This document shows, piece after piece, positions 6,896 through 26,902 of a stretch of 64,000 nucleotides of DNA. Position 1 is the first letter of the stretch. Each line of letters opens with the position of its first letter. Source of the stretch: an uncultured Anaerobiospirillum sp. (lineage in GTDB: Bacteria > Pseudomonadota > Gammaproteobacteria > Enterobacterales > Succinivibrionaceae); NCBI GenBank assembly GCA_944390115.1, contig CALXOW010000008.1:1-64000 (forward strand), read 5' to 3'. The position numbers were made by a program, and so were the translations under genes. The notes below the pieces were generated by a model, which worked only from the letters and a program-made list of their open reading frames with translations, had not been told where the DNA came from and made no database searches.

Positions 6896-7453
6896 ATGGT
6901 TAATGACGTTAAAAACGACGCCCAAGCGCGCATGAATAAGGCCGTTGAGTCCTTAGGCAGCCGCTTAAACAAGATTCGTACGGGCCGTGCCCAGCCTGGT
7001 CTGTTAGACGGTATCATGGTTGATTACTATGGTTCGCCAACCCCACTGCGTCAGGTGGCTCAGGTCAACGTCGAAGATGCACGTACCTTAAAGCTGACGG
7101 TATTTGACCGCAATGCGATCAAGAGTGTTGAGAAGGCCATTCAGCAGTCGGGTCTGGGCTTAAACCCAGTAGTTGCAGGCGTCGACATTCGCGTTCCACT
7201 TCCTCCATTAACCGAAGAAACTCGTAAGGAGTTAGTTAAGGTTGTCCGTGGTGAGGTCGAGCAGGCCCGCGTTGAGATCCGCAACGTCCGTCGTGATGCT
7301 AACCAGAGCTTAAAGAGCCTGCAAAAGGACAAGCAGATTTCTGAGGACGAGCAGAAGGGCGGTGAAGAGCAGATTCAGAAGCTCACCGATGCTTCGATCA
7401 AGAAGTGCGATGAAATCTTAGCAGCCAAGGAGAAGGAGCTGATGGAGATCTAA
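6896..7453 (+). CDS. frr: Ribosome recycling factor
   Basis: 185 residues, as in E. coli. RRF works with EF-G to split the post-termination ribosome. The first helix ([15 protein letters not shown]), the [15 protein letters not shown] signature, [17 protein letters not shown] and the C-terminal helices with [15 protein letters not shown]-like pattern are present. The start has AAGGAG upstream. It follows pyrH by 40 bases and probably shares its transcript. A strong terminator follows. Confidence 0.98.
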
Positions 7454-7621: not shown

Positions 7622-7692
7622 CCGCGAAATGTGCTTTAGTAAAAGGTGTTCAAGGAAAAGACATAAGAGCAAGTGCAGCCTGTAGGCGCGAA

Positions 7693-7963
7693 GGGCGCGG
7701 CCGCCAGGACAGAGCGATCGGCGTAAACCGCGTTCCCAGCGCGCGTCCTCGTGACCAGCTTCAATTACAGCTGGCCCACCCGCCGCCGCCTGCTGCGCGA
7801 GTCAATCCAGCTAGGAGCGAGGCAAGGCGCGCCCTCATGCTGCGTGCTGGCTTGCGCCCCAGCGCGGTGCTGGACTCAAGGCAGGGGCGCGGCCGTAGGT
7901 GCGGAGTTATCTGCTCCAGCCGCGTTCCCGGTGCGCGTCCTCGTGATCAGCTTCAATTACGGC
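7693..7963 (+). repeat. Composite intergenic repeat, left array (units A1 and B1)
   Basis: Two related units of about 80 bases lie at 7693-7773 and 7884-7963, 192 bases apart. Both start with GCGCGGCCG and end with TCCTCGTGA(C/T)CAGCTTCAATTAC. Between them is a spacer (about 7774-7883) with GCGAGTCAATCCAG and GTGCTGGCTTGCGCCC. The same unit-spacer-unit layout, in the same orientation, recurs at 16246-16527. Each unit can form a GCGCGGC/GCCGCGT stem, and A1 has a CCAGCT/AGCTGG stem at its end. This is not a family I recognise. Confidence 0.8.
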
Positions 7964-8506: not shown

Positions 8507-11299
8507 ATGACACCAGAGCAACAAGCACGCGAGCTGATCGATCAACAGCTCAGACTGGCCGGTTGGCCAGTAGTGCCGCGCGATGAGGTCTTACCTAATG
8601 CCCCAGCGCAGGCAGTGTGCGAGGAGCAAATGCAGAATCAGCACCGAGCCGATTACACCTTACTGTTATACGGCCATGCTTGCGCGGTCATTGAGGCTAA
8701 AAGCCTCGCCGTTAACCTCTTAGCTCCAGCGGTCAAGGCACAAGCGGAGGGTTACACCACCTTGCTCAATCCGCAATTTCCTGCGGTGGCTCGGCCGTTG
8801 CCCTTGGTGTTCTTGGCCAATGGTCAGCGCATCCTGTTTCGTGATCTGCGTACGGACGTTGATTACATCCCGCTCCAGTGCTTCTTAAGCCCGTCACAGG
8901 TACTAGAACGCTGCCCTGAGCTTAATGAATATGTGGCTCAGGTTATGGGCAAGAGCTTTATGCGTTTGCCTGAACTGGAGCAGGGGGTACTGCGCACCTG
9001 CCAATTTGAGGCGATCAATAACCTCGAGATGGCGTTGCAGCAGGGTAAGCGTCGTGCTTATATGGTTATGGCCACGGGTTCAGGTAAGACCATTACCGCG
9101 CGCACTGCTCTTTTGCGCCTGTTTCAGCACAGCAATGTCCGCCGTGTGCTCTATCTGACCGATCGCACCAACTTGGGGACAGACGCCCTCACTACTTTCC
9201 GCAATTTAGAGGTCGAGGGCAAGTTTCCGTTCAAGGAACAGCTTCATGCCGCGCAACTCACTTCAGCAGAGCAACTAACTTCAAGCTTTACTGGAGTGCA
9301 CTTTGCCACGATCCAGCGGGTTAGCGCGATCATGAAGGGCCAAGAACTCAATCTTGCTAAGGACCAAGATCTGGTTGTGGAAACGCCAGACGAGGATTTG
9401 GTGGCGTGGTCCGATAGCCTGATGGAGACCGAATTGCCCGAAGAGGTTCCTGCGGACAGTTGCATTCCTTGTGACTACTACGACCTCATCGTGATCGATG
9501 AGTGCCACCGCTCGATCTACAATAAGTGGCGCAAGTTCCTGGATTATTTTGGGCAGCATGCCATTTTGCTTGGGTTGACCGCCACGCCTATTCCTGAGAC
9601 TGACCGCTTTTTCCAAGGCTGCTGCCTGATCAATTATTCGTTAGAGCAGTCGATCGCCGATGGTGTCAATGTGGGAATGATGGTCTATCGAGTGATGACC
9701 GAGCGCTCAGTCTATGGCGGTGCGGTCAATCCCGGTGAGCGTATGGAGGTGACATCCAACTACACCGGTGAGAGCAAGGATACTCAGGCGCAAGTGAGCG
9801 CTGAGTTTACGGCGCGCGCGATCAATCGTAGTGTGGCGTTGCCTCAGCAAGTGGAGACGATCATTGTCGCCTTTCGAGATGCCGTTTTCACCAAGCTCTT
9901 CCCAGAGCGTAAGTGCGATTTCAATCTGATTCCCAAGACCTTGGTCTTTGCTCAAAATCAGCGTCACGCTCGGATGATTGTCCAGACATTTCGCAAGGTC
10001 TTTGGGCGCAGTGATTCTGATTACTTTGTGGTGCAAGTGACCTACTCCGAACCCAACTGCGAACTGCTGATCAATAAGTTTCGTTACGACCAAGAGTGCC
10101 GTATTGCGGTGACCGTCGGCATGCTTTCTACCGGGTCAAATTTCCCAGCAGTTGAGATCTTGCTTTTTATGGCCTATGTCCGCTCAGAAGTGCTTTACAC
10201 GCAGATGAAGGGCCGTGGGGTTCGTTCGATTAGCGATGCTCTGCTCCAAGAGGTCACCCCAAATGCCTTACACAAGGACTATTGCGTCTTGTTCGATGCC
10301 GTGGGCGTTACCGAGTCGGAGAAGGCCATGCCTAGCCTTAACGTAGGGGAGAGCGTGCTGTCCTTAGAGCGCTTGCTGGAGCTTTTATCGCGCGGCGTGG
10401 TCAGCAACGACAATTTGCTCTTACTGGCCACTCGTTTAAATAACCTGGCGCTGCGGGGTGATCAAAATGAGCTCTTAGCACTCAAGCGCCTGGCACCTAA
10501 GCTCGATCTCCAAGGCTTAGCCTTAGACATTTGCCATGCCTGTGAACGCGGGTTGCCACCGTACCAATCAAGCAGTGCACCTAACTTGGAACGCAAGAGC
10601 TTGATTGCGGTATTAATGGAGGATCTCCCAGCGCGTAAGAAACTCCTTGAGATTAGCAAGGGCTACTTCAGGGTGTTGCCGCAACAGCAAGATCAGGTGA
10701 TCTATGAAGGCTTCACCTTCAAGGAAGCCGAGCATCAGGTTGAAGGTTTTGAGAGCAGACTCTCTAAGCTTGCTCTGGAGGAGCCCATCTTTGCCCAGCT
10801 CAAGCGCAATGAGGCTGATGCTGAGCTCTTCACCGCGTCCAACTTAAAGCTGATGAAGACTAATTTGGAGCAAAGCTTTGCCAGCTTCAATGTGCAACGC
10901 CTGTGGCGCTCATACGGGCTTTTGTTGCAAGACCAAGGTGGACGTACTGTAGTGCCACTCACCGCAGAGGATGAAGTGGCGCTGACCAATATTTACCAAC
11001 TCACGCGCTTTGGTTTCCACAACAGCCAAGAACTTATCTCCCTACACAACAGCGCGCGCTTTGCGCAGCGCTTTAACTTGTGGTGTGGTCAAGCGCAAAA
11101 CTCGCTGCCGATGGATCCTGCCATGCGTGAGCTTTACCGACTCTTGGCCCAAACCATTGTGCGTAGCGGTGTGATCACTGGGATTAAGGCGCTGCGTAAG
11201 ATCGACAGCGAGATTTTTGACAATATGCGCGACCTGCTCGGCATCAACGATTCCGATCGCGCTATTCACTCGCTCAATCGCTTTCTGCTAGCGGCCTAG
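8507..11299 (+). CDS. hsdR: Type I restriction endonuclease, HsdR (motor and nuclease) subunit
   Basis: 930 residues from the ATG at 8507, which has GGGAGG just upstream; a TTG at 8471 is a poorer choice. HsdR translocates DNA using ATP and cuts unmodified DNA as part of an R2M2S complex. The N-terminal PD-(D/E)xK nuclease is intact (D49, then E63-A-K65). The superfamily 2 helicase core shows motif I GSGKT at 191-195, TDRTNLGTDA, motif II DECH at 331-334 followed by RSIYNKWRKFLDYF, and motif III GLTATPIPETD. The later half has MLSTGSNFPAVEILLF and MKGRGVRS (motifs V and VI). The DECHRS/GLTATP style resembles the EcoAI/EcoEI group. All catalytic motifs are present, so it should be active. Confidence 0.95.
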   Translation: MTPEQQARELIDQQLRLAGWPVVPRDEVLPNAPAQAVCEEQMQNQHRADYTLLLYGHACAVIEAKSLAVNLLAPAVKAQAEGYTTLLNPQFPAVARPLPLVFLANGQRILFRDLRTDVDYIPLQCFLSPSQVLERCPELNEYVAQVMGKSFMRLPELEQGVLRTCQFEAINNLEMALQQGKRRAYMVMATGSGKTITARTALLRLFQHSNVRRVLYLTDRTNLGTDALTTFRNLEVEGKFPFKEQLHAAQLTSAEQLTSSFTGVHFATIQRVSAIMKGQELNLAKDQDLVVETPDEDLVAWSDSLMETELPEEVPADSCIPCDYYDLIVIDECHRSIYNKWRKFLDYFGQHAILLGLTATPIPETDRFFQGCCLINYSLEQSIADGVNVGMMVYRVMTERSVYGGAVNPGERMEVTSNYTGESKDTQAQVSAEFTARAINRSVALPQQVETIIVAFRDAVFTKLFPERKCDFNLIPKTLVFAQNQRHARMIVQTFRKVFGRSDSDYFVVQVTYSEPNCELLINKFRYDQECRIAVTVGMLSTGSNFPAVEILLFMAYVRSEVLYTQMKGRGVRSISDALLQEVTPNALHKDYCVLFDAVGVTESEKAMPSLNVGESVLSLERLLELLSRGVVSNDNLLLLATRLNNLALRGDQNELLALKRLAPKLDLQGLALDICHACERGLPPYQSSSAPNLERKSLIAVLMEDLPARKKLLEISKGYFRVLPQQQDQVIYEGFTFKEAEHQVEGFESRLSKLALEEPIFAQLKRNEADAELFTASNLKLMKTNLEQSFASFNVQRLWRSYGLLLQDQGGRTVVPLTAEDEVALTNIYQLTRFGFHNSQELISLHNSARFAQRFNLWCGQAQNSLPMDPAMRELYRLLAQTIVRSGVITGIKALRKIDSEIFDNMRDLLGINDSDRAIHSLNRFLLAA

Positions 11300-11474: not shown

Positions 11475-12986
11475 ATGGCTTCGACATTGACTAACCCCAA
11501 GCACGTTGAGCAGGTGCGAACCCTGAGCAAGAAGCTCTGGGATATGGCTGATGTCGTGGTCGGCCATGGCGTAAGCTATACTGATTTTTGGGCAGCGTTG
11601 ACTTACTTGCTTTTCATCAAGATGGATTCTGAGCTCATAGATTGGGATGAACAATCGCACTTGCCTGAGTCCTGCCAATGGCAGAGTTTGCTCACTGCCT
11701 CAGATTATTTGGGCCAAGAAGTACCGTTACTACCAGAGCAGCGTCTTGCCCATTACAACGAGATCATTGCCACCCTATCTGCTTCTGATTATCCCGATGC
11801 GCTGGTGCGCGGCATTTTCGCTAAAGCTCACAACAAAATTGACCATCCGCTGTACTTCACCAAAGTAATTGAGATGATCGATAGTACCAACTGGCTTGAC
11901 TTGAGAACCGATGTGAAGGGCGCGCTTTATGAGAGCATCTTGGAACGCAATGGCCAAGATGTGCGCAGTGGAGCGGGGCAGTATTTTACGCCGCGCGTAC
12001 TGGTGCAAGTCATGACTGAGCTTACCGATCCTCGGCCCAACGAGTTGGTCTGGGATCCGGCCTGTGGCACGGCAGGCTTTTTAATCGAGGCCTACGACCA
12101 TATGCGCAAGCAAACCGATTTGGTGTCTGAGCTTGAGTTCATCAAAGAGCACGGTTTGCGCGGTCAAGACAACACACCGATCGTGGTGACCATGGCCTCC
12201 ATGAACATGTTTTTGCATGGCTTTGAGGGTAAGCAATCTCCGATTTCCTTAGGCGATTCGCTTATGATCTTACCTCAGGAGAAAGCTGATGTAATCTTAA
12301 CCAATCCGCCGTTTGGTGATCGCGCTAAGGGGGGAATATCGATCGAGCGCTCAGACTTTGTTGCCAAGACCAACAACAACCAGCTCAACTTTTTGCAGCA
12401 CATTATGTCGTTGCTCAAGGATGGAGGCCGGGCAGCGGTGGTGATGCCAGAAGGCATTCTGTACGATAAGGCAGGCAAGGAAATTCGGCGCACTTTATTG
12501 ACCAAATTCAACCTGCACACCATGCTACGTTTACCGCATGGTCTGTTTTATGTGGAGCGCATTAACACCTATGTGCTGTTCTTTACCAAAGGACAACCAA
12601 CCAGGGATATATGGGTTTATGACCTGCGCACTGACACTAACTTCTCGCTAGTAAAGAATCGTTTGCAGTTGAGCGACTTCGACGATTTTGTGCAGTGTTA
12701 TCAGGCCACAGAGCGTGGTACCTTTGGTCGGCGCGTAGAAACCTATGACCAAAAGAGCAATCCTAATGGTCGTTGGCGCAAGTTCACGGCGGCCCAGTTT
12801 CTTAACGACAAACTGTGCCGAATTAAGCTCCCAGTGTGGATGACACCACCACCCACTGAGTTCGAGCAGATGAGCTTAAAGCAACTATTGCTCGCCATGT
12901 CTCAAGCTTATAAGAACAGCAGCCAAGTTTTTGATCATCTACAAAGCGAGCTGAGTGTCTATATTAAGTTTGACGCCAAGGAATAA
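11475..12986 (+). CDS. hsdM: Type I restriction-modification DNA methyltransferase, HsdM subunit
   Basis: 503 residues. HsdM transfers methyl groups from S-adenosylmethionine to adenine N6 in the target chosen by HsdS. The N-terminal helical domain (LSKKLWDMADVVVGHGVSYTDFW) precedes a Rossmann methylase core. Motif I is DPACGTAGF from D194, and the catalytic motif IV is NPPF at 277-280. YESILERNGQDVRSGAGQYFTPR is the segment that typically precedes motif I. It lies 175 bases after hsdR and ends 4 bases before hsdS starts, so hsdM and hsdS are surely co-transcribed. AAGG lies upstream of the start. Confidence 0.96.
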   Translation: MASTLTNPKHVEQVRTLSKKLWDMADVVVGHGVSYTDFWAALTYLLFIKMDSELIDWDEQSHLPESCQWQSLLTASDYLGQEVPLLPEQRLAHYNEIIATLSASDYPDALVRGIFAKAHNKIDHPLYFTKVIEMIDSTNWLDLRTDVKGALYESILERNGQDVRSGAGQYFTPRVLVQVMTELTDPRPNELVWDPACGTAGFLIEAYDHMRKQTDLVSELEFIKEHGLRGQDNTPIVVTMASMNMFLHGFEGKQSPISLGDSLMILPQEKADVILTNPPFGDRAKGGISIERSDFVAKTNNNQLNFLQHIMSLLKDGGRAAVVMPEGILYDKAGKEIRRTLLTKFNLHTMLRLPHGLFYVERINTYVLFFTKGQPTRDIWVYDLRTDTNFSLVKNRLQLSDFDDFVQCYQATERGTFGRRVETYDQKSNPNGRWRKFTAAQFLNDKLCRIKLPVWMTPPPTEFEQMSLKQLLLAMSQAYKNSSQVFDHLQSELSVYIKFDAKE

Positions 12987-12990
12987 TGCT

Positions 12991-14970
12991 ATGACTTGCT
13001 TTAGCGCCTTGCGTTATCGCCTCTTAGAGCTAGCTTTATCTGGGAGGTTGTTGCCGCAGCAAGACAGTGAGCCAGTGGTCAAGCCCAAGAATGTAAGTCC
13101 GGCTTTAGATGAGGTTCCTTTTGCGCTGCCTAATAAGTGGCAATGGTATCAGCTCAATGATTTAGGACAAGTGTTCCGAGGTAGGACACCGTCGGACAAA
13201 ACTGAGAACTGGGACAATCCCACTATTCCTTGGATTACCGGGACTGATTTACATGCCAACCAAAGCAAGGGGGTCTATATTTGGGAGGGGGCTTGTGGTA
13301 TCACGGAGCAAGGATTACTCGAAACTTACGCTAAGTTGGTTCCGATTGGTGCTGTGATCTACACGATCACTGGTTTTAATATCGGTGATATTGCTATTAC
13401 CGCGCGTGAGTGCAGCATTAACAATAGCTGTTACGCTTATGTCCCAGATTTTGAGCTTATTAGCTCTAAGTGGGCCTATTATGTCCTGAAGTGGGCGACC
13501 CCAAAACTCCTATCCAAAGCATTAGGAACTACCATGCCGCGCATAGCGGCCGACGTTTTTGGTCAAACTTGGATTCCACTGCCCTCTCTCAAAGAACAAG
13601 AACGCATTATCACCAAGCTTGAGCACTTCATGCAGCAAATCGATCTGTTGGAGCAATCATATCGCTTACTGGAGCCGCTGGCGCAAGCAACGCGCGCTAA
13701 GGTGCAGCAATTAGCGTTGGCGGGGCAATTGGTGCCGCAGCAAATAGATGAACCTAAAGTTGAGTTCAAAGGTACATTCCCTATTAAAGAGGTCCCTTTT
13801 TCCATCCCAGATAAGTGGAAATGGCTATGTTTAGGCGATCTGGTCGATATTAAGTCGGGGGTTGATACCAAGGCAATGGATCAAGGCAATGCCAAGTTTT
13901 TGCGCATTGCTGATTTTTATGACGGTGAGGTCAATTGGGACAAGGTTAAGCTAGGTCAGATCTCAGCGGCGCGCCTTGATCTTGCGGACTTGCAGGTCAA
14001 TGATATAGTGATCGCTAAATCTGGTTCGATTGGTAAAGCTTGGGTAGTAGATCATCTTGATCCTAGTTGGCCATGCGTTTTCAGTGGAAGCTTATTTCGC
14101 TTGCGACTTAAGCCCAGCATTCCGGTTGAACCCAACTATCTCAAGCTCTATTTTCAATCGCAGCTCTTTGAGCGTCACATTCTGATCTGGGCTCACGGGT
14201 CGCTTACTAGGAACATAGGCAGTGACGATATAGCTGAGCTGCCGTTGTCTCTGCCGCCGCTGGGTGAACAGCGCCGGATTGTCGCGCGCGTTACGCAGCT
14301 CATGGCTTTGATTGATCAATTTCAGGATGCCTTCTCCTTTAGCAACTTACTTGCTCCGGAGACGCCGCCTAAATTACCTGAGCAGGCTTCGGAGCCCAAT
14401 CTCCAAGTAAAGTCAGCAGACATTGCGTCTGAGCCAGAGCCTCAGCCTGCTCCGCTCAAGCCTGAAGCGGCTGCTCCAACACCTGAGGTTACAGCGCGCA
14501 AGCTGGCACCTGATCCTGCCTTAGATCCTCAACCTGTGTCATCAGACATAGCATCTGAACCAGAGACTCAGGCCTGCTCGCTCAAGCCTGAAGCGGCTGC
14601 TCCAATACCTGAGGCCACATTGCGCAAGCAGGCAACTGATCCGGCCTTAGAGCCTCAGCCCTTGTCACCAGATATCGAGCCAGAGAATAAGTCCGTTCCT
14701 CTCAAGTCTGAAGCGGCTGCTCCAACGCCAGAGGCCACAACGCGCAAGCAGGCAGCAGAGCCTGCCTTAGAGTCCCAGCCCTTGTCATCTGACATCGAGC
14801 CTGAGCCAGAGACTCAGCCTGCTCCGCTCAAGTCTGAAGCGGCAGAGTCAACTGAGGTCCCACCATGTAAGCAGACGCAGCCTAAGTCCAAGCCACGGCA
14901 TAATAAAGCGCGTCCTGCCACCCAGCTGAACCTGCTCGACCAGATTGAGGCGCTCAACGATTGGTCGTAG
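12991..14970 (+). CDS. hsdS: Type I restriction-modification specificity subunit, HsdS, with a repeat-rich C-terminal tail
   Basis: 659 residues from the ATG at 12991 (AAGGA upstream; hsdM stop 4 bases before). The first 450 residues are a normal HsdS: a first target-recognition domain after WQWYQLNDLGQVFRG, a conserved helical region, then a second domain after KWKWLCLGDLVDIKSG, each closed by a PLPSLKEQERI- or LPPLGEQRRI-type motif. The two halves are related, as in all HsdS. From residue 475 the protein adds about 185 residues made of four Pro/Glu/Ala-rich repeats (42, 42, 40 and about 38 residues), then a basic stretch and the end QLNLLDQIEALNDWS. Typical HsdS proteins of 400-450 residues lack this tail. 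There is one hsdS only and no recombinase, so no sign of target switching by inversion. Confidence 0.93.
   Translation: MTCFSALRYRLLELALSGRLLPQQDSEPVVKPKNVSPALDEVPFALPNKWQWYQLNDLGQVFRGRTPSDKTENWDNPTIPWITGTDLHANQSKGVYIWEGACGITEQGLLETYAKLVPIGAVIYTITGFNIGDIAITARECSINNSCYAYVPDFELISSKWAYYVLKWATPKLLSKALGTTMPRIAADVFGQTWIPLPSLKEQERIITKLEHFMQQIDLLEQSYRLLEPLAQATRAKVQQLALAGQLVPQQIDEPKVEFKGTFPIKEVPFSIPDKWKWLCLGDLVDIKSGVDTKAMDQGNAKFLRIADFYDGEVNWDKVKLGQISAARLDLADLQVNDIVIAKSGSIGKAWVVDHLDPSWPCVFSGSLFRLRLKPSIPVEPNYLKLYFQSQLFERHILIWAHGSLTRNIGSDDIAELPLSLPPLGEQRRIVARVTQLMALIDQFQDAFSFSNLLAPETPPKLPEQASEPNLQVKSADIASEPEPQPAPLKPEAAAPTPEVTARKLAPDPALDPQPVSSDIASEPETQACSLKPEAAAPIPEATLRKQATDPALEPQPLSPDIEPENKSVPLKSEAAAPTPEATTRKQAAEPALESQPLSSDIEPEPETQPAPLKSEAAESTEVPPCKQTQPKSKPRHNKARPATQLNLLDQIEALNDWS
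14413..14898 (+). repeat. Four tandem 126/120-bp repeats coding for the HsdS tail
   Basis: Repeat units start at 14413, 14539, 14665 and 14785, each with TCA followed by an Asp-Ile codon pair two codons on. Periods are 126, 126 and 120 bases, all multiples of three. Each unit codes for a Ser-x-Asp-Ile start, a Glu/Pro stretch, LKPEAAAPTPE-like and RKQAxDPALEPQP-like segments. The units have diverged at both DNA and protein level, the fourth most. Confidence 0.9.
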
Positions 14971-15031
14971 CCGAAGCTTGTTTTCACGGGCTGGAGCTTA
15001 CTTGAACTGGACCTTAGCCTGCGCTGGACTG

Positions 15032-15838
15032 TTACTGCGGGTAAATGGTCAGAGCGTGGCCTTTGAGGCGCAAGAAGTCCGTGTTCTGGAAGCGCAGCAC
15101 TAAGGCCCCCTCGTTCTCGCTTACTAAGTAAGTGGCCGGAAGATTATCGGTTATGGCCGTGAGCGGCGTATTGCCCTGGAAGTAATCGGTGGTGATGGTG
15201 CGGCTGATGATCTCGCCTAAGACCTCATAGCTGGTAGGGTAGTCGATCACCACTGGGCTAGAGGCCAAGCTGCAAGTTCACCGCCATCGTTTCATTAGGC
15301 GCGTGGTTTAAAGCAGAGAACACGGAATGCTGGCAGGAGGCGAGAATTTGGCCGTGCTCAGGGCGCAGACTGACCAAGGTGCCCGGCTGCTGGGTACTTA
15401 GGCCTTAATTTCCCACGATTTTCAGACTAGAGGCCAAAAATGCCGATTTTAAGCCGTTTTGCACACAAAAGCGTTTCTATATTTTAAACTAGAATTCGAA
15501 CGAGAAAAACGAGCATAAAGCCTTATGGAATCATGGTTCTAGGCTTTCTAGTCTGAAAACCGTGGGAAATTAAGGTTAGGGCTTGCGCGAGATTAAAGGC
15601 TACGGTGGTAGCGCCACTGCCAGGGAGCAGGGACTGAAGCAAGATCTTAAGCATAAGGCGTCCGCCGTTGCGGACCAGCGTCCAAGCGCTGCTGCCAATG
15701 GTTGGTAAGCTCCGCCAACAGGGCAGAGTGAGCCAAGAGCGCCTGCAAACGCGCTTGGGCTTGGCGCTCGAAATAGTGCGGCACGCGGAAGTGCTGATTG
15801 CGCTCCAGGCGCTCCACGTCAAATGGGACTGCGGCCAT
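15032..15838 (-). pseudogene. Decayed gene of unknown function, interrupted by a MITE-like element
   Basis: Read on the minus strand there is AAGGAG then ATG at 15838, giving MAAVPFDVERLERNQHFRV and on to about residue 55. After a frameshift near 15670 comes LLQSLLPGSGATTVAFNLAQ. At 15575 a 173-bp element interrupts it. Removing the element and one TTAGG copy joins LAQAL directly to STQQPGTLVSLRPEHG in frame. A second frameshift near 15285 leads into PVVIDYPTSYEVLGEIISRT and the end LKGHALTIYPQ at 15032. The restored product would be about 210 residues. I do not recognise the family. The GSGATTVAFN stretch recalls a degenerate P-loop only superficially. Confidence 0.75.
15403..15575. mobile_element. 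173-bp MITE-like element with 29-bp terminal inverted repeats and 5-bp target duplication
   Basis: The left end (15403-15431) and the reverse complement of the right end (15547-15575) match over 29 bases with one difference; both begin CCTTAATTTCCCACG. The element is flanked by TTAGG on both sides (15398-15402 and 15576-15580), a perfect 5-bp target-site duplication. The interior is AT-rich and has no gene, so movement would need a transposase supplied elsewhere. I cannot assign it to an IS family. Confidence 0.88.
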
Positions 15839-16110: not shown

Positions 16111-16527
16111 AGGTGCGGTGCATTGCGCCCGGCCCGCTCCCGGTGCGCGACCATGCTTTGAGCCAGTGCGTACGCCCGCGCCGGTAAGGATGGGCAGGCC
16201 CTGCTGGAAGGTTCGTTCAGGCTTGGGTGCTGCCTGCAAGTAAAAGGGGCGCGGCCGTAAGTGCGGTGCGATCGGCGCCAGCCGCGTTCTCGGTACACAT
16301 CTCTCGTGACCAGCTTCAATTGCAACATGCCCACCCACCACCCCCGCCGCCGCCAGCTGCGTGAGTCAGTCCAGTTAGGAGCGAGGAGCCAGTTACGCCT
16401 TCCAACTTCGTGCTGGCTTGCGCCCAGGCTCGGTGCTGTTTTCAGCAGAGCGCGGCCGCCAGGGCAGAGCAATCTGTTTTAGCCGCGTTCCAGGTACGCA
16501 TCCTCGTGACCAGCTGCAATTGCAGCT
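16111..16527 (+). repeat. Composite intergenic repeat, right array (degenerate unit, B2 and A2)
   Basis: Units lie at 16246-16326 (B type, GCGCGGCCGTAAGTGCGG) and 16449-16527 (A type, GCGCGGCCGCCAGG), 201 bases apart, with the conserved spacer between them. A diverged third unit lies near 16111-16166. The order is B then A, whereas the left array at 7693-7963 is A then B, in the same orientation. A2 ends in the perfect palindrome AGCTGCAATTGCAGCT. Confidence 0.8.
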
Positions 16528-20497: not shown

Positions 20498-22330
20498 ATG
20501 GGCGGCGCGCTCTGGAATTTGCTCTTTTTCTGTATTGTTTTGGGTGTCTTGGTGACCATCCATGAGTTTGGTCACTATCTGGCAGCTCGCCTCTGTGGGG
20601 TTAAGGTCTATCGCTTCTGCTTGGGCTTTGGCCCGGTGATCTTCCGTAAGGTCCGCAAGAACGGCGAAGAGTTCGCGATCGCTTTGCTGCCCTTAGGTGG
20701 CTACGTCAAGATGAAGGGCGAGAGCGTCGAGGTCACCGCCGTTGAAGGCGCTGCGACTGACGCGGAAAAAGCCGATCAGGAAAAGGCTGCTCAGAACAAG
20801 GCTGCTCAGAAAAAGGCGGCGCAAAAGCCCGGTCAAGGCTGGGCTAATTTAGCCTCGGGATCCTTTGAGACTGATTTTGCTCAGATTCGCACTGGTACTA
20901 ATCCTGATAGCGCCTTTAGCACTAAGTCCACGGCGGCCTTGGTGCGTGAGGCCGAGCGCGCGGCGCAAGACAATCAGGCGCAGCTGAGTGACTCCTTTGC
21001 TGATAAAAAGATCTGGCAGCGCACTGTGATCATTGCGGCGGGCCCTGTCTTTAATATCATCCTCGCCTTTTTGATCTATATCGTGATCAATTCCTTTGGC
21101 GTGAGCGCTCATTTGCCCGTCGTCGATGGCATTGCGCCGGGCTCGCGCGCCTATGAGCTGGGCCTGCGCAATGGTGATTTGATCACCACCGTCGATGGCC
21201 GTGAGGTCTATACCGCTGGTGACGCTTGGATGAACCTGGGCAGTTTTGCCGGAAAAGAAGTCGATTTTACGGTCAAGTCAGACTTTGGCCGGGGCCCTGA
21301 GCGCACCTTGCAGTTAGATTTGACCGGCTTTGATGTGATTGAGGATGACTTCTTTGATTACATCGGGATGGGCCAAAGCTGGGGCGAAATGGCCGCCGAT
21401 GTCTCCTTTGTCGAGGCCGATAAGCCCGCCGCGCGCGCTGGGCTTTTGCCCGGTGACCTGATTGTCGCCGTTAACGGCACGAAGGTCGCCAATTTCTCAG
21501 AGGCGGTCGCCTTATTGCGCGCTGATTTTCGCAAGCAACAGCTTGATCTGTTAGGTCCGCTGCCTAAGGAAGTTACCGAGGAGTACATCGGCAAGGCGCT
21601 TAATGCCCCTTATGCCCCGATTAAGCTGACGATCGTGCGCCGTTACTGGGACGAAGGTATGCTGCCCCCAGATCCGGCCGCAGACTTTAGCGCTACCACT
21701 GATGAGGCATTCTTTGCGCGCGGACGTGACCCTAAGCTTAATCAGGCTTGGTATGACGGCTTAGAGGCAGTGGCGCGGGCGCGGGCGAGCGTGGCGCCGA
21801 CTTCCTCTGAGATGTTTGAGCTCACCGTAGAGCCTAATGTGACGGTTGACGGTCAAAATGGTAAGGTGCAACCACGTCTTGGGATGGGGGCGATTACCTT
21901 AGATGGATCGCTGGTGTGGACTGAGGTCAATTTTGGGCCAGTTGAGCTCGTGACCAAGGCTTTTCATGATACCGTCAGCGACTCGCTCTTGATTTTCCGC
22001 TCCTTGCACTCTTTGGTCTCAGGTGATATCGGCTTTAAAGCCGTATCAGGTCCCGTTGCGATCGCGACCGTCGCCGGTGAAACGGCGTCCTTGGGCCCAA
22101 GCTTCTTTTTGAAGTTCCTAGCGCTCTTATCGATCAACCTGGGTTGGTTGAACCTCATCCCGATTCCGGTGTTAGATGGAGGTCAGCTCTTGTATCTTGC
22201 TTATGAAAAGGTCATCGGGCGGCCCCCGAGCGTACGGGCGCAAAACTTTTTATCGGTCTTGGGTTTAAGTCTGATCCTAGGTTTGACCTTGCTGGCCATT
22301 TTCAATGACATCAGCTATTTTTGGCTTTAG
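20498..22330 (+). CDS. rseP: Site-2 zinc metalloprotease RseP
   Basis: 610 residues, much longer than E. coli RseP (450). An intramembrane protease that cleaves RseA-type anti-sigma factors and remnant signal peptides in the inner membrane. The zinc site HEFGH is at residues 22-26 in the first transmembrane helix, and the third ligand lies in PVLDGGQLLYLAYE (D560). PDZ domains occupy the periplasmic middle (VDGIAPGSRAYELGLRNGD and EADKPAARAGLLPGDLIVAVNG). Two additions explain the length: an Ala/Lys-rich insertion at about residues 80-168, before the second membrane helix, and an extra stretch of about 100 residues after the second PDZ domain. The last codons are copied downstream near the bamA promoter. 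Confidence 0.95.
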   Translation: MGGALWNLLFFCIVLGVLVTIHEFGHYLAARLCGVKVYRFCLGFGPVIFRKVRKNGEEFAIALLPLGGYVKMKGESVEVTAVEGAATDAEKADQEKAAQNKAAQKKAAQKPGQGWANLASGSFETDFAQIRTGTNPDSAFSTKSTAALVREAERAAQDNQAQLSDSFADKKIWQRTVIIAAGPVFNIILAFLIYIVINSFGVSAHLPVVDGIAPGSRAYELGLRNGDLITTVDGREVYTAGDAWMNLGSFAGKEVDFTVKSDFGRGPERTLQLDLTGFDVIEDDFFDYIGMGQSWGEMAADVSFVEADKPAARAGLLPGDLIVAVNGTKVANFSEAVALLRADFRKQQLDLLGPLPKEVTEEYIGKALNAPYAPIKLTIVRRYWDEGMLPPDPAADFSATTDEAFFARGRDPKLNQAWYDGLEAVARARASVAPTSSEMFELTVEPNVTVDGQNGKVQPRLGMGAITLDGSLVWTEVNFGPVELVTKAFHDTVSDSLLIFRSLHSLVSGDIGFKAVSGPVAIATVAGETASLGPSFFLKFLALLSINLGWLNLIPIPVLDGGQLLYLAYEKVIGRPPSVRAQNFLSVLGLSLILGLTLLAIFNDISYFWL

Positions 22331-25794: not shown

Positions 25795-26820
25795 GTGTTA
25801 GTCAAAGAGATTGCACAGCAACTGGGGGCATCATTTATTGGCGATGGTGACATCAACATTACGCGCGTGGCCAACCTTGCTACCGCGCATGAGGGCGACA
25901 TCAGCTTCTTATCCGACCCGAAGTATCGCTCGGCCTTAGAGACCTCGCAGGCCAGCTGCGTGATGGTCAAGCCTGAGCTCAAAGAGCACGTCAAGGGTGC
26001 GGCGATTGTGCTCAATGATCCGTACTTAGGCTTTGCCCGCGTGGCTCAAATGCTCGATACCACGCCACCGGTGGCAGAAGGGATTGCTCCAAGCGCCATC
26101 ATCCATCCTTCAGCTAAGCTCGGTGCCAACGTCGCAATCGGCCCAAATGCCGTAATTGGCGCTGAGGTCGAGTTAGGCGACAACGTCCAAATTGGCGCCA
26201 ACTGCGTGCTTGGTCCAAAAGTTAAGATCGGCGCTAACACCAAGCTCTACCCGCTGGTAAGCGTCTATCATGACTGTGAAATTGGCGCTCATTGCCTGAT
26301 TCAATCAAGCACCGTAATTGGCGGTGACGGCTTTGGCTACGCTAATGACAAGGGTGAGTGGGTCAAGATTCCGCAGACCGGCCGCGTCATCATCGGCGAC
26401 CGGGTGGAGATCGGTGCTTGCACCTGTATCGATCGCGGCGCGCTTGATAACACCATTATTGAGTCCAATGTCATCATCGACAATCTGTGCCAAATCGCCC
26501 ATAACGTCAAGATCGGCTACGGTACAGCAGTCGCAGGTGGCACCACCTTCGCAGGCTCGGTCACGATCGGTAAGTACTGCATTATCGGCGGCACGAGCGT
26601 CTTTAATGGCCATATCACGATCGCCGACCAAGTTACGATTTCGGGCATGTGCATGGTGATGCGCTCGATCACTGAGCCTAAGAGCACTTACTCCTCGGGT
26701 ATTCCAGCCCAGCCTAATGCTGAGTGGCGTAAGACCGCCGCGCGTGTGCTCCATATCAATGATATGTACCACCGCCTGCAAGAGCTCGAGCAAAAGGTTG
26801 CGGCCTTGCAAGAGCACTAA
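25795..26820 (+). CDS. lpxD: UDP-3-O-(3-hydroxyacyl)glucosamine N-acyltransferase
   Basis: 341 residues, the same length as E. coli LpxD, from a GTG at 25795 with AGGGAGAGGA upstream. It adds the N-linked hydroxyacyl chain in the third step of lipid A synthesis, in the cytosol. The N-terminal uridine-binding domain ([31 protein letters not shown]) precedes a left-handed beta-helix of hexapeptide repeats (for example [19 protein letters not shown] and [14 protein letters not shown]). It ends in a short helix [14 protein letters not shown]. The final codons belong to a 38-bp tandem repeat that runs into the spacer. Confidence 0.97.
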
Positions 26821-26902
26821 GCAAGGCGCTAAGCGAGAGCGCTAGGCAAGAGCACTAAGCAAGGCGCTAAGCGAGAGCGCTAGGCAAGAGCACTAAGCAA
26901 GC
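26809..26902 (+). repeat. 38-bp tandem repeat spanning the lpxD stop codon
   Basis: Two full units (26809-26846 and 26847-26884) and a partial third (26885-26902). Each starts CAAGAGCACTAAGCAAG. The lpxD stop (TAA at 26818-26820) lies in the first unit and its copies lie in the next ones. The copies are identical over their full length. Confidence 0.92.

Follow-up and report, generated by a model that had tools for sequence, protein, structure and literature searches.

Four-residue tandem repeats of the TAEL type are located in the central part of type IC HsdS proteins. A study of such tetra-amino-acid repeats is among those cited in the accessible part of PMC6158711. Type I specificity subunits with the PF01420 domain, including those with solved structures (1yf2, 3okg, 5ybb, 2y7c, and 7bst, compared here by sequence), have two target recognition domains and two long helices, and their gene follows hsdM. 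The hsdS gene described here lies in a 64,000-nucleotide stretch of DNA from an uncultured Anaerobiospirillum sp., and we will use the term "window" for the whole of this stretch. It shares these features with the type I HsdS proteins but adds a 207-residue, predicted disordered repeat tail past the second helix. The tail repeats and the TAEL-type repeats are both in-frame protein repeats in HsdS; the latter are four residues long and central, whereas the former are 40–42 residues long and C-terminal. Since the window repeats begin at residue 475, past the second recognition domain, they are not a TAEL-type spacer. A repeat-built, predicted disordered tail of this length is a new feature on an HsdS, and its main explanation lies in what is usual for the lineage. 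Among the matches listed in a literature search covering titles and abstract openings, with subscription papers mostly outside its scope, nothing dealt with C-terminal HsdS repeats or clamp-bound type I enzymes.

The cassette between the frr and uppS genes is identified from its sequence as a type I restriction-modification system, hsdR-hsdM-hsdS, with all frames open. Its genes and flanks are as follows.

6896-7453: ribosome recycling factor (frr), one flank of the cassette (Pfam match)
8507-11299, plus strand: hsdR, restriction/translocation subunit, an open frame with the start codon chosen here (Pfam ResIII, SWI2_SNF2, Helicase_C, and HSDR_N; PADLOC REase_I)
11475-12986, plus strand: hsdM, methyltransferase subunit of 503 residues (Pfam N6_Mtase, 1.8e-63, and HsdM_N; PADLOC MTase_I, 4e-130)
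12991-14970, plus strand: hsdS, specificity subunit of 659 residues (Pfam Methylase_S, 2e-36, in two stretches)
from about 16789: undecaprenyl diphosphate synthase (uppS), the other flank of the cassette (Pfam match)

The NCBIfam matches, including that to an EcoAI-like HsdR model, all fall under the curated cut-offs, and the cassette is therefore given no type I subfamily. In two other members of the genus, G009 and G010, the frr-uppS interval holds no match to the HsdR, HsdM, or HsdS of the window.

The start of hsdS was set at the ATG at 12991, giving 659 residues; a longer open reading frame of 671 residues begins at a GTG inside hsdM. Two Methylase_S (PF01420) matches are found in the gene, at 13129-13662 and 13807-14313. 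In the AlphaFold2 model, built with 63 sequences, the core has pLDDT values mostly above 90, and a long helix follows each recognition domain, at residues 200-243 and 424-448. The gene thus has the traits of a type I hsdS, namely two Methylase_S domains, a long helix after each, and adjacent hsdM and hsdR. As both the sequence and the model suggest, the core, in which long helices link the two target recognition domains, is expected to function like that of other type I enzymes. The 14 relatives chosen for alignment span residues 1-452 and stop near there. The parts of hsdS are listed below.

12991-14346, plus strand: hsdS core, residues 1-452, with two target recognition domains and two long helices (aligned relatives; AlphaFold2)
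14347-14412, plus strand: residues 453-474, where the tail begins, not repeated (pLDDT under 50 from residue 458 on)
14413-14538, plus strand: repeat 1, 42 residues (TRF array and sequence)
14539-14664, plus strand: repeat 2, 42 residues (TRF array and sequence)
14665-14784, plus strand: repeat 3, 40 residues (TRF array and sequence)
14785-14854, plus strand: incomplete repeat 4 of about 20-23 residues (end of the TRF array and reading of the sequence)
14884-14913, plus strand: basic stretch, residues 632-641 (sequence)
14923-14967, plus strand: C-terminal tip, residues 645-659, starting with QLNLL (14923-14937), a candidate clamp-binding motif (published pattern; local rate; low-confidence helix at 648-658)

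The tail comprises 207 residues from about residue 453, and its repeats and tip together make up 185 of them, in agreement with the roughly 185 added residues of the original prediction. That prediction had described four 42-residue repeats; the array is real, but its units are 42, 42, and 40 residues long and are followed by a partial fourth. The spacing it gave for the repeat starts (126, 126, and 120 bases, all in frame) is borne out by the unit coordinates and by TRF, which reports an array at 14412-14843 with a period of 126, 3.5 copies, and a score of 525. When the codons of 14380-14967 were shuffled, none of 500 sequences gave a TRF array with a period of at least 60 at a score of at least 30. 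Over the same stretch only the hsdS frame is open, while the other five frames contain 5 to 19 stops each. Unit layout, shuffles, and stops in the other frames all support the earlier proposal that the tail grew by in-frame duplication and was kept open. The sequence shows that a 126-bp unit was duplicated in frame to lengthen the tail, and that the copies diverged afterwards. At the DNA level, units 1-3 are 85, 75, and 76% identical to one another, and the partial fourth matches them at 63-79%. Among units 1-3, pN is 0.15-0.17 against a pS of 0.27-0.35, a difference based on few sites that hints at constraint on the protein. The fourth copy turns into the basic stretch, which is followed by the unique tip. 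A wrong stop, or a frameshift such that hsdS really ends near residue 450, which had been named as a possible objection, is ruled out, as the tail is readable in the hsdS frame and in that frame alone.

The tail is predicted to be an intrinsically disordered extension. In the AlphaFold2 model, 167 of the 189 residues in 458-646 have a pLDDT below 50, and residues 648-658 form a low-confidence helix. On a FoldIndex-type scale, the two halves of the core score 0.19 and 0.22; the tail segments range from -0.02 to -0.17 and mostly lie near zero. The suggestion that the tail is a disordered arm is in line with this model. The objection that it might be a separate known domain is answered by the domain searches, with no Pfam or NCBIfam match inside the tail and no PADLOC match there among those listed (25 of 115).

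The origin of the tail sequence was also sought elsewhere, in a comparison set with one genome per species, the own species included. A copy from another gene of the own genome was rejected (the second-best match has an E of only 0.395), as was a copy from elsewhere in 98 genomes, own included, where the best other match has an E of 0.0076 and a stop inside. For the last 32 residues, nothing else better than E 0.57 was found in 11 genomes of the genus.

The C-terminus was compared with those of other HsdS proteins by running a profile of the aligned cores against open reading frames of at least 300 residues in the collected loci. Of 201 hits, 63 were dropped as duplicates or incomplete, leaving 138 distinct HsdS that reach the C-terminal end of the profile. 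The loci are a non-random set, brought in by the window HsdS, by PF01420, or picked for long frames, so the sample should favour tails. Among these 138 proteins the C-terminal tail has a median length of 14.5 residues; it reaches at least 60 residues in 7 and at least 100 in 4, and that of the window HsdS is the longest (214 residues by the profile boundary). The fraction of P/E/A/S/T/Q/K/D residues in the window tail is 0.78, the highest of the 7 long tails, with the next at 0.62. In a search of GTDB contigs for close relatives, none was confirmed with the single sequence as query; with an alignment query the best 80 of 426 were confirmed, and a pattern survey of these best 80 loci found no comparable tail. 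In 512 plasmid and 10 phage records, all matches are below 60% identity and none covers 80% of the query.

Four HsdS proteins of the survey (L108, L251, L287, and L288) resemble that of the window in having extra sequence after the second conserved helix. Their additions contain 51-62% P/E/A/S/T/Q/K/D, against 78% in the window tail, and no repeats by eye. Those of L251 and L287 look alike, with about 65-70 residues of ordinary composition, and are possibly a folded domain. A shorter HsdS-like open reading frame of 306 residues (L276, from the gammaproteobacterium G194) shares with the window protein a repeated segment, here in a Q/P/T-rich end, but this segment is much shorter and different in sequence. 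The original view that the tail is unlike known HsdS ends therefore holds insofar as it is exceptional among the 138 C-termini, but in the own genome other, unrelated proteins carry segments with much the same composition.

Such stretches were counted as open reading frames of at least 120 residues that contain an 80-residue segment with at least 75% P/E/A/S/T/Q/K/D. In the own genome they account for 23 of 255 frames in 400 kb outside the window and for 3 of 38 in the window. In samples of 200 kb each, A. succiniciproducens has 10 such frames among 96, a genome from another genus of the family has 3 among 154, and E. coli K-12 has 2 among 171. Pfam domains are present in six of nine owners scanned (FliO, DEAD-box helicase, TerC, and FtsK among them) and absent from three. 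The sampling thus shows that the own genome and A. succiniciproducens tend to equip a range of unrelated proteins with disordered tails and linkers rich in A/P/E/S/T/K. Coding tandem arrays (period of at least 30 and a multiple of three) were counted as well: the own genome has 5 in 400 kb (12.5 per Mb), and samples of 200 kb contain 3 in E. coli (15 per Mb), 7 in A. succiniciproducens, and 0 in the other family member. As their density in the own genome does not exceed that in E. coli, the signal in the own genome lies in composition and not in repeat number. Two further own-genome frames overlap in-frame repeats, L162:8273-9382 with long periods of 105 and 78 bp and L178:2884-5952, which encodes a helicase-like protein, with one of 45 bp.

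A TerC-family protein provides direct evidence that tails turn over in the genus by in-frame duplication or loss. In 8 of 11 genomes (3 were dropped by the extraction filter), its core is 83-99% identical to the own-genome core, while its tails are 35-108 residues long and 25-97% identical. Between the two closest genomes, the tail differs by one 9-residue in-frame unit.

Based on these observations, the HsdS tail is probably a lineage-typical disordered extension that is dispensable or weakly selected. It would be one instance of the A/P/E/S/T/K-rich disordered tails and linkers of the lineage. Its role is most probably that of a tolerated flexible arm extending from where the second long helix ends, its composition and tip being under weak selection at most. 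The disordered-tail habit of the lineage would then reach even a restriction enzyme, and a tail that is long and unusual does not have to signal a special function. What a neutral spacer leaves over, and what counts against this explanation, is that the tip is distinct from the repeats.

The tip is central to another explanation, in which the tail would act as a flexible tether. Its C-terminal QLNLL would bind the beta sliding clamp and so bring the methyltransferase to DNA that has just been replicated, or the nuclease to foreign DNA in the course of replication. As far as the accessible parts of these sources go, the beta-clamp-binding pattern is Q-aliphatic-x-[L/M]-[F/L] with mostly negatively charged flanks (PMC11139829), and the motif of E. 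coli UmuC is QLNLF (PMC3716654). QLNLL (residues 645-649) fits the former pattern and is one residue off the latter motif. In pairwise alignment, the DnaE and UmuC of the own genome have QMDLL and QADLL at the places of the E. coli motifs, so leucine is last in both of these two. The HsdS tip shares with the bacterial DNA polymerase clamp-binding ends (QL[S/D]LF type, in the same parts of PMC3716654 and PMC11139829) the arrangement Q-x-x-[L/M]-[F/L] near the end of a flexible tail, but differs from them in being a candidate by sequence; no tailed relative was found that could show whether the tip is conserved. With its first residue 15 residues from the C-terminus of the predicted disordered tail, the motif is followed by acidic residues, but the side before it is basic, unlike the mostly negative flanks described in PMC11139829. 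Its surroundings are low-confidence and mostly unstructured in the AlphaFold2 model, with a weak helix from residue 648. Going by the rates in 310 local open reading frames (121,234 residues), the last 25 residues of a single protein should contain 0.0007 matches to the strict pattern, 0.0014 to QLxL[LF], and 0.005 to the published pattern. These rates have to be set against a motif that was noticed after the fact, at the end of one protein. The published pattern occurs in the last 25 residues of 2 of the 310 frames against about 1.6 expected, and there is thus no excess of such C-termini. It is also not a family trait, since only one of 137 other HsdS C-termini matches it (QASLL in L150, at an ordinary short end). 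The strict pattern is present inside a Na+/H+ antiporter, a DUF386 protein, and the window frame at 20498-22327 as well, and matches fall in other unrelated frames too. In the MutS of the own genome, the 792 residues covered, up to the stop, have no match. On balance, we regard clamp binding by the tail as unlikely. If the tip binds the clamp, a type I methyltransferase would be physically linked to replication, with a direct answer to how hemimethylated sites behind the fork get serviced. The more specific proposal of a leash to the replication fork, in which about 190 residues of disordered repeats and the motif would let HsdS-HsdM follow the clamp and methylate sites on new DNA, is doubtful too.

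A contact with HsdR, HsdM, or another host protein, or a modulation of complex assembly or proteolysis, would suit the position of the tail at the end of the second long helix and its acidic repeats with a basic, possibly helical end. A related tail is, however, absent from the other HsdS surveyed (138 distinct C-termini), and such a partner-binding arm seems improbable. The in-frame tandem repeats could also be read as a contingency tract, in which changes in copy number switch the length of HsdS and hence its activity or specificity, and the TerC-family protein differs by a whole in-frame unit between the two closest genus genomes. Against this, the repeats have a long period, and the tail is not part of the segment that separates the recognition domains, so that a longer or shorter tail would not be expected to alter target spacing. 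The near-identical copies of a phase-variable tract are lacking as well; with units that have diverged to 63-85% identity, an active tract of this kind is unlikely. We therefore consider switching by copy number very improbable, and the original suggestion of a variable-length region, in the sense of a currently unstable copy number, is unlikely given the divergence of the copies. The lineage-typical disordered extension thus remains the preferred explanation of the tail.

The cassette as a whole can be compared with that of a sister genome, G003, whose contig ends inside hsdM, so that the comparison covers the hsdM end, hsdS, and the downstream side. The downstream flank of G003 is 90-95% identical to the window in blocks of 246, 3626, and 1152 bases. 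Just before this flank lie the end of an hsdM, with 40% identity over 122 residues, and an untailed hsdS, a 456-residue frame with 38% identity. The homology restarts about 50 bases past the hsdS stop in both the window and G003. The simplest reading of these alignments is that hsdM and hsdS, the latter with its tail, were exchanged together at one site. The block at 15020-15265 is 95% identical in G003 and 75% in G009, and one minus-strand frame in it is open for about 80 residues, perhaps as a gene remnant.

Pairs of direct repeats of about 75 bp, about 200 bp apart, flank the cassette at 7692-7958 and 16247-16524. The repeat block is 75% identical between the two sides over 278 columns, and more matches to it are found in the own contig C48 (starts 88, 383, and 669) and in G003. 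These repeats might aid the exchange of the cassette. Elsewhere in the window, a 38-bp tandem repeat at 26808-26901 has 2.5 copies with 100% matches and a period that is not a multiple of three.
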